The position numbers and the translations under genes are program-made. Shown here in pieces: positions 16,093-56,878 of a stretch of DNA of 64,000 bases. Below the pieces are notes generated by a model that had not been told where the DNA came from, ran no database searches, and was given only the letters and a program-made list of their open reading frames with translations. The stretch lies in NCBI GenBank assembly GCA_002747325.1, contig PDOZ01000028.1, positions 1-64,000 on the forward strand. The letters are read 5' to 3'. Origin of the DNA: Rhodobacterales bacterium (GTDB taxonomy: Bacteria; Pseudomonadota; Alphaproteobacteria; Rhodobacterales; Rhodobacteraceae). Every line of letters begins with the position of its first letter. Positions within the stretch are counted from its first letter, which is position 1.

Positions 16093-16230
16093 TGTGGTAT
16101 CCTTATTCTGCTCGTTATGTCGATTTTTCCCATCATAGAATCTGAAATGGCCTTCAGAATCAATACGAATCAGCGAATCGACACCAATCTGAGTCCATTC
16201 AGCACCATAATTTCCTAATTTTTTGCTAAA

Positions 16231-16325
16231 GCGTTTATAGTTTCTCGGAAATAAACGTATCGTTTTTCGCGTTCGACCGTTCGGGAGAGGCAGCGAACAA
16301 GCGATTCAAGGCAAACTATAAACGC
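16231..16325. promoter_or_regulatory. Perfect 13-bp inverted repeat in divergent chvI/pckA promoter region
   Basis: GCGTTTATAGTTT (16231-16243) and AAACTATAAACGC (16313-16325). Confidence 0.75.
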
Positions 16326-16526
16326 CCCAAGATTTCCGATCCGAAACCGGCGAACACGAAAGTTAGCGCAAACACCGGCGTGCTAGCGTTAACGCCCCGA
16401 TTGCCCCTGTTTCTTTCCAAAACTGCCATGATATAGCGGACTCACACCGGCCAGATGGGGTCGGTTTTGCTGGCGCACTTCGCGCCGCCCAACAGAAAGC
16501 CGGGATGCCGGCGCAGGAGTAAGCAG

Positions 16527-55247: not shown

Positions 55248-55814
55248 ATGACCGAAAAGATTACCGCGCTGGACCTGCCGATAGTCGATCCGCTGCCCGA
55301 GAACATTCAGGCCTATTTCGACCTGTGCGACGAAAAGCTGGGCCTCGTGCCCAACGTGCTGAAAGCCTACGCGTTCGACATGGAAAAGCTGAATGCTTTC
55401 AGCGCCTTTTATAACGACCTGATGCTGGGCGACAGCGGGTTAAGCAAGCTCGAACGCGAGATGATCGCGGTTGTGGTCTCGTCGACCAACCGCTGCTGGT
55501 ATTGTCAGGTCGCGCACGGCGCGGCGGTGCGCGAATTGTCCGGCGACCCGGCGCTTGGCGAAGCAATGGTGATGAATTTCCGCGCCGCGAACCTGTCTGA
55601 CCGGCACCATGCGATGCTGGAATTTGCCGAGAAGCTGACGCAAACCCCGAGCAAGGTTGATGCGCCGGATCGTGCCGCCCTGCGCGAAGCGGGCTTTTCG
55701 GATCGCGATATTTGGGATATTGCGTCCGTGGTTGGCTTTTTCAACATGACCAACCGCGTGGCACAGGCCACGGATATGCAACCCAATGACGCCTATCACG
55801 CGCAGGCAAGATGA
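55248..55814 (+). CDS. AhpD-like peroxidase-related enzyme
   Basis: NRCWYCQVAHGAAVRELSGDPAL, CxxCxxxH motif. Confidence 0.9.
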   Translation: MTEKITALDLPIVDPLPENIQAYFDLCDEKLGLVPNVLKAYAFDMEKLNAFSAFYNDLMLGDSGLSKLEREMIAVVVSSTNRCWYCQVAHGAAVRELSGDPALGEAMVMNFRAANLSDRHHAMLEFAEKLTQTPSKVDAPDRAALREAGFSDRDIWDIASVVGFFNMTNRVAQATDMQPNDAYHAQAR

Positions 55815-56740
55815 TCCGAACCCTTCCGCTCCTTTTCGCTCTGATCCCGGCCCCGCTCGCGGCGGCAACGCTGGAACTACCGGCGGGGGCGGAATTGCGC
55901 GCGGAGGTCGTGGACCCGGCGGGGCGCTATGCGCTGCCGCTGGCGCCGTGGGCTGCGGGAAGCGGGGTCAAAGCGCGCGAGACAACCGGGCAGATCAGCC
56001 GGCAAGCCTGGCGACTTGGCGGCACGGGGCTTTCGAGCTTTCAAATTCTGTCCGACCTGCGCGCGCAATTGGAGTCGGACGGTTTTTCCATCCTGTTTGA
56101 ATGCTCAACCCGCGAATGCGGCGGCTTTGATTTCCGTTATGGCACCGAGGTGCTGACGGAACCGGCGATGCACGTAAACCTTGGGGATTTTCATTTTCTA
56201 TCGGCGGAAAATGAGGCGAATAATCTGGTCAGCCTGCTGGTCAGCCGTTCCGCCTCCGCCGCCTTCGTGCAGGTGATACAGGTCGGCGACGCCGCACCGA
56301 TCACGCAGCCGGTCACGTCAACGCGGGCGGTTCCGGGCACGGCCCTGCCGACGGCGGAACTGTCCGAGATTGGTCCGGCAATGGAAAGCGTTGGGCGCTA
56401 TATCCTTGCCGATCTGGTGTTTGAAACCGGCTCGGCGGCGCTCGGCCCCGGCGATTTTACCTCGCTGACCGATCTCGCCGCTTATCTCAAAGCCGACACA
56501 TCGCGGCGCGTGGCGCTGGTTGGGCATACGGATGCGACCGGCTCGCTGTCCGGCAACGTATCGCTTTCGAAACGACGGGCGGAAAGCGTCATGGCGCGGT
56601 TGATTTCCGATTTCGGCGTCCCGGCCGCACAGCTTGAAGCAGACGGCATTGGCTACCTCGCCCCGATCGCAACCAACCAGACGGAAGAAGGGCGCGCGAC
56701 GAACCGTCGGGTTGAGGCTATTTTGGTTTCCACCCGTTAG
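55811..56740 (+). CDS. OmpA family protein
   Basis: Signal peptide; VFETGSAALGPGDFTSLTDLAAYL...VALVGHTDATGSLSGNVSLSKRRAESV. Confidence 0.9.
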   Translation: MIRTLPLLFALIPAPLAAATLELPAGAELRAEVVDPAGRYALPLAPWAAGSGVKARETTGQISRQAWRLGGTGLSSFQILSDLRAQLESDGFSILFECSTRECGGFDFRYGTEVLTEPAMHVNLGDFHFLSAENEANNLVSLLVSRSASAAFVQVIQVGDAAPITQPVTSTRAVPGTALPTAELSEIGPAMESVGRYILADLVFETGSAALGPGDFTSLTDLAAYLKADTSRRVALVGHTDATGSLSGNVSLSKRRAESVMARLISDFGVPAAQLEADGIGYLAPIATNQTEEGRATNRRVEAILVSTR

Positions 56741-56744
56741 AGCA

Positions 56745-56845
56745 GAAATCGATAAATCTGAATCAAAATTCCCTGCCTCTCAATCAGCATCTTGCTGATT
56801 TCAAACGTGAATTTTGATGCCGATATTACAAATTAAATCGATTTC
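56745..56845. repeat. ~100-bp triple-nested inverted-repeat element
   Basis: GAAATCGAT/ATCGATTTC, ATCAAAATTC/GAATTTTGAT, AATCAGCA/TGCTGATT nested about 56791. Confidence 0.85.
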
Positions 56846-56849
56846 GCTG

Positions 56850-56878
56850 TAAAAAAACGCCCCGCACGAAGCGGGGCG
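56850..56878 (-). terminator. Intrinsic terminator of LysR gene
   Basis: Minus strand cgccccgc ttcgt gcggggcgttttttt. Confidence 0.88.

Follow-up and report, generated by a model that had tools for sequence, protein, structure and literature searches.

The nested palindrome between the OmpA-family gene and the convergent LysR gene is one copy of a dispersed, hairpin-forming element that runs from TA to TA. We consider it very likely (probability roughly 0.87) that this feature belongs to a non-autonomous, TA-targeting, MITE-like mobile family of Rhodobacterales that encodes no protein itself. A transposase provided in trans would recognise the inverted-repeat ends and insert the element at TA; the copy described here would have landed on the stop codon of the OmpA-family gene, adjoining the U-tract of the LysR terminator, and would now constitute a hairpin-rich 3' UTR of the OmpA-family gene. 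Several properties by which MITEs are recognised are found, i.e. a length below 500 bp, no transposase gene, many dispersed copies, terminal inverted repeats, and a target site duplication, the latter at one clean empty site.

The copy at the OmpA-family gene and its relatives

The features of the element and its neighbours are compiled in Table 1, where all positions refer to the window, i.e. the whole 64,000-nt stretch of DNA that was analysed.

Table 1. Positions of the element, its structural parts and adjacent features in the window
Feature	Position	Strand	Basis or remark
OmpA-family protein gene, 309 aa, stop codon supplied by the element	55811..56740	+	
Entire element (subfamily A, 115-bp type) with the flanking TA on either side	56738..56851	+	alignment of copies
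First triplet of the element, TAG, also serving as stop codon for the OmpA-family gene	56738..56740	+	
Presumed TA target duplication, left copy	56738..56739	.	Y-TA...TA-R flanks family-wide; occupied/empty site in another genus
Outer stem / terminal inverted repeat, 5' arm, with A bulge	56738..56760	+	
Middle stem, 5' arm	56762..56771	+	
Conserved loop motif CTGCCT	56773..56778	+	fully or almost invariant across most subfamilies and genera
Apical hairpin region AATCAGCA/TGCTGATT	56779..56803	+	length differs among subfamilies
Conserved loop motif AACG, opposite CTGCCT	56804..56807	+	
Middle stem, 3' arm	56809..56818	+	
Outer stem / terminal inverted repeat, 3' arm	56829..56851	+	
Presumed TA target duplication, right copy	56850..56851	.	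as for left copy
Intrinsic terminator of the convergent LysR gene, outside the element, U-tract abutting it	56858..56878	-	
Second, divergent copy of another subfamily, outer stem GCGTTTATAGTTT	16227..16329	-	covariance-model match, E 1.4e-13

The preliminary description had located the palindrome correctly, and its extent of 56741-56850 needs only a slight widening to the TA borders. Two of the nested arm pairs that it listed, 56745-56753/56837-56845 and 56782-56789/56793-56800, are perfect, and the third, 56762-56771/56809-56818, is part of a 16-nt pair of 88% (56756-56771/56809-56824). The element is indeed AT-rich, with a GC content of 35% versus 61% for the window. RNA folding, proposed as a check, gave -31.3 kcal/mol on the given strand versus a shuffle mean of -17.5 kcal/mol (z -4.6, equalled by 0 of 200 shuffles), and z -3.7 against shuffles on the opposite strand. 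The element had been said to begin within a few bases of the ompA-like stop; the position is right, but the stop codon TAG is itself the first triplet of the element. It had also been called possibly decayed. With 90% identity over 115 bp to the subfamily A consensus of the dispersed family and a single deleted base, the copy is only mildly decayed.

In the host assembly (1.99 Mb in 46 contigs, 78% complete), a sequence search with the palindrome segment detected 40 dispersed copies, and a covariance model that was built from copies of several genera brought the number to about 79 distinct copies, which fall into three or more subfamilies. When host copies are aligned together with their flanks, the similarity ends sharply at TAGAGC...GCTCTA. 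The earlier impression that the window contains no second copy has to be revised, since the covariance model recovered a divergent one on the minus strand, the right end of which is decayed.

Beyond the host, a search by plain DNA similarity failed to detect the family in 40 related genomes, and such a search of 397 genomes found traces in a few, with matches also in other Rhodobacterales bins. The covariance model found relatives in 26 of the 101 Rhodobacteraceae genera sampled, some with many matches, and the width of the distribution is visible only through this model. The family thus covers about a quarter of the sampled Rhodobacteraceae genera and seems to be unnamed, as no name for it was found in open-licence papers. 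The genome richest in copies, G010, has 201 copies of the element end sequence, which corresponds to about 100 elements, and a reversed-pattern control gave 0. Plasmids carry the element in Roseobacter litoralis, R. denitrificans, Alisedimentitalea, Pseudosulfitobacter and Sulfitobacter, and also in Roseovarius, Marinovum, Salipiger and Phaeobacter. In conjugative plasmids of the Roseobacter group, a copy lies between virB5 and virB8 of a type IV secretion operon (L292, L294, L295, L296, L298, L300, L304-L306), and this copy is retained at the orthologous place in many plasmids of different genera. Phage genomes gave no match when queried with one subfamily sequence.

A 97% match in another metagenome bin was considered as a transfer and rejected, as the contig is shared. 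Contig PDRY01000026.1 (L068) of the Rhodobacterales bin DOLJORAL78_64_13 is identical to host contig C7 (L008) over the compared 3.1 kb, which is probably a case of mis-binning and points to a common sample as the source of the host and this bin. In another bin, DOLJORAL78_66_20, two copies at unrelated loci (L070, L071) are cut at the same point, about 17 bp before the right end.

Insertion at TA and at stop codons

The TA target was duplicated upon insertion at the one site with clean empty counterparts, among species of the genus of G010, where CCGC-TA-AGCTCGCCC stands against the occupied CCGC-TA-element-TA-GGCTGCCC. The flanks of the host copies show a pyrimidine before the left TA in 70 of 79 cases and a purine after the right TA in 66 of 79. 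About a quarter of the host left ends have CA or TG in place of TA, and for these either decay or a looser target must be assumed. Occupied and empty states were also found in a plasmid-borne helix-turn-helix gene of the Roseobacter group. In six records of this gene (L193-L198) the element lies in frame, adding 102 bp or 34 codons close to the C-terminal end, and it is absent from five others (L199-L203), the products having 240 versus 206 aa. On these mobilizable plasmids, the gene is directly followed by a relaxase gene. Presence and absence across species are thus confirmed at this site, with no clear TA duplication; the relaxase gene that lies downstream is disrupted in the Ruegeria record.

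Among the 40 gene ends that continue into an element, 28 are in the stop-codon frame (p 2e-6 against one third, with an ORF caller made for this analysis and therefore approximate), and 23 of the 40 stop exactly on the terminal triplet of the element. Several of the affected genes are complete up to the element stop when compared with their profiles: dihydroorotase (340 of 341 positions), adenine phosphoribosyltransferase (181 of 182), thiolase (392 of 392) and octaprenyl diphosphate synthase (321 of 323). As these genes are complete at that point, the element inserted into their original stop codons, in place of which it supplies a TAG or TAA from its own sequence. The OmpA-family gene belongs to the genes that end on the terminal triplet, and the Pfam OmpA domain of its product (residues 204-299 of 309) is complete, being matched to the last position of the domain. 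Judging from the right flank, its original stop codon was probably TAA, in the predicted context ...CGT TAA AAA AAC.... Stop codons would be natural targets in GC-rich genes because TAA or TAG after a pyrimidine reads YTAR, and an insertion would rebuild TAG or TAA because the element mostly has G or A after its TA. Such self-repair after landing on a stop codon offers a mobile element a simple, testable means of remaining harmless.

Stem covariation and alternative readings

The elements are 93-115 bp long and follow an almost fixed plan of terminal TA, outer stem, middle stem, a small hairpin, and the loop motifs CTGCCT and AACG. In most subfamilies, the segments hardly vary in length: 24 nt precede the 11-nt first strand of the middle stem and CTGCCT, and the hairpin, which is variable, is followed by AACG, the 11-nt second strand of the middle stem and 34 nt. 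The terminal inverted repeats TAnAGC...GCTnTA continue into an outer stem of about 15 bp. A 93-bp subfamily (L172) without the typical loop motifs is among the exceptions. In one copy (L127, G306:C1:437177-437300), the apical hairpin is enlarged by two additional 10-bp units CTCGCTGTCT, as though through hairpin slippage.

Between genera, the stem sequences differ wholesale while pairing is kept, with 27 of 39 pairs changed on both sides. In the stems, 81% of the cells are paired, versus 63% after shuffling and about 40% after sliding. In 27 copies from genera or plasmids outside model building, 80% of the cells at positions 7-16 of the outer stem are paired, versus 56% (sd 2.6) after the arms of different copies were exchanged. 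The three observations that the preliminary description had named as contrary to a dispersed element, namely a single-copy sequence, a syntenically conserved 3' UTR and a lack of compensatory changes in relatives, were each examined, and none of them holds.

What does the covariation reflect? It can originate from a functional hairpin or from two ends that are recognised by one protein. According to the latter reading, which is compatible with a MITE-like family and which we regard as a serious contender at somewhat below even odds, the two inverted ends are bound as double-stranded DNA by one transposase and the hairpin never forms. A single protein that recognises both ends would produce the same co-variation, and the wobble pairs without strand bias agree with this, but the middle stem and the apical hairpin, 25-50 bp away from the ends, co-vary as well, and CTGCCT and AACG face each other in the fold. 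A more far-reaching and rather doubtful proposal is that the Rhodobacterales-wide element transposes via a folded single strand that presents the CTGCCT/AACG loop and the compensated stems, is moved by a transposase outside the families commonly associated with such repeats, and resides on stop codons because it restores them.

It is still less probable that the element is a structured RNA gene or a regulatory RNA of 3' UTRs that has been amplified but is kept for its RNA function. Strong folding, compensating changes, the conserved internal-loop motif, and the persistence of a copy between virB5 and virB8 across conjugative plasmids from several genera would all suit an RNA, but copies occur at unrelated loci and in both orientations relative to genes, and Rfam returned no family above its gathering score. 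Moreover, the imperfect pairs comprise 58 G-T and 44 A-C, which is no clear G-T excess; neither RNA strand is therefore favoured, and an RNA is not claimed.

Of the two families invoked by the initial label "REP/MITE-like", the MITE part is retained and the REP part is not. A REP/BIME-type element that is spread by a Y1 (RAYT) transposase would likewise form dispersed extragenic palindromes with conserved loops, and some carriers do have Y1 transposases. However, Y1 does not track the element: Y1_Tnp was not detected in G010 with its approximately 100 copies, nor in G079, G003, G005 and G001. The unit of 93-115 bp with TA ends and TA duplication also differs from a tagged palindrome of 20-40 bp, and no need for Y1 is apparent, which makes this reading very improbable. 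An ordinary terminator or attenuator that serves the ompA/lysR pair in both directions can practically be dismissed despite the position between convergent genes, as no T-tract follows the element stem, many copies lie elsewhere, and the separate terminator that had been noticed beside the element is confirmed as that of the LysR gene on the minus strand; the initial preference for a dispersed palindrome over a terminator is thus borne out by the approximately 79 genome copies, the empty and occupied sites, and the compensating stem changes between genera.

Candidate transposases and known repeat families

If the element belongs to a MITE-like family, an enzyme would move it in trans, and the genome with about 100 close copies makes the search for this transposase a tractable question. 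The scan of this highest-copy genome covered Y1, DDE_3 and DUF4096. No autonomous partner or parental IS with matching ends was seen in these comparisons or among the matches listed for the 201 end hits in G010, where isolated ends might have marked such a parent. An IS630 partner was rejected, as DDE_3 is absent from most carriers tested, with no detection in G010, G428, G435, G079, G116, G003, G005 and G071. An IS5/IS427 partner was rejected as well: the IS427-type elements of other carriers also target TA, but their ends differ, and proteins with DUF4096 are absent from several carriers, including G010. For the RUP element of Streptococcus pneumoniae, mobilisation by IS630-Spn1, with ends common to both, has been proposed; in this respect the Rhodobacterales element differs, as no such partner was found and DDE_3 is lacking in several carriers.

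By size, TA ends and target, the element is comparable to RUP, ERIC and Correia. RUP has about 107 bp, terminal inverted repeats, TA ends and a TA target, many copies and no ORF (PMC2229807), and the Rhodobacterales element resembles it in all these respects, with the difference that several subfamilies with compensated stems coexist per genome. ERIC/IRU and Correia/NEMIS are palindromes of about 100-200 bp with TA ends that form stable hairpins when transcribed and are usually found near genes, sometimes fused in frame (PMC2229807, PMC10969869). They are likened here by description, and their hosts differ. A limited paper search found no report of frequent stop-codon landing for ERIC or Correia, a property that was measured for the Rhodobacterales element.

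The CcrM-associated intergenic repeats (CIR) of Caulobacter and Brucella are alphaproteobacterial, about 110 bp long, with TA termini, a fold of two arms with a linker, and a conserved GANTC (PMC2229807). By description, the Rhodobacterales element differs in having one long arm, and its GANTC content argues against membership: the site occurs at the corresponding position of just 41 of the 79 copies, and its obligate A (position 24) is the variable base. Rickettsia palindromic elements are palindromes of 105-146 bp that can insert in frame in proteins (PMC2229807). The helix-turn-helix gene of the plasmids (240 versus 206 aa) is one clear parallel, for which no membership is claimed, whereas most Rhodobacterales copies are intergenic or lie at stop codons.

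With its hairpins located at the ends of genes, between genes for type IV secretion and within one plasmid protein, the element can influence mRNA ends, the expression of operons and gene calling, and also assembly, as contigs break beside some copies. Four copies at the ends of host contigs C31, C20, C25 and C10 (L016, L022, L033, L081) abut the same IS end, TA-GGCTGAATCGACATTC..., and the assembly breaks there; the IS is apparently an IS5/IS427-type element that inserted at the TA border of the palindrome. Six further copies (L024, L025, L026, L028, L040, L082) lie within or beside another repeated motif, TTCTTCTTAGCAAAAATACTC.
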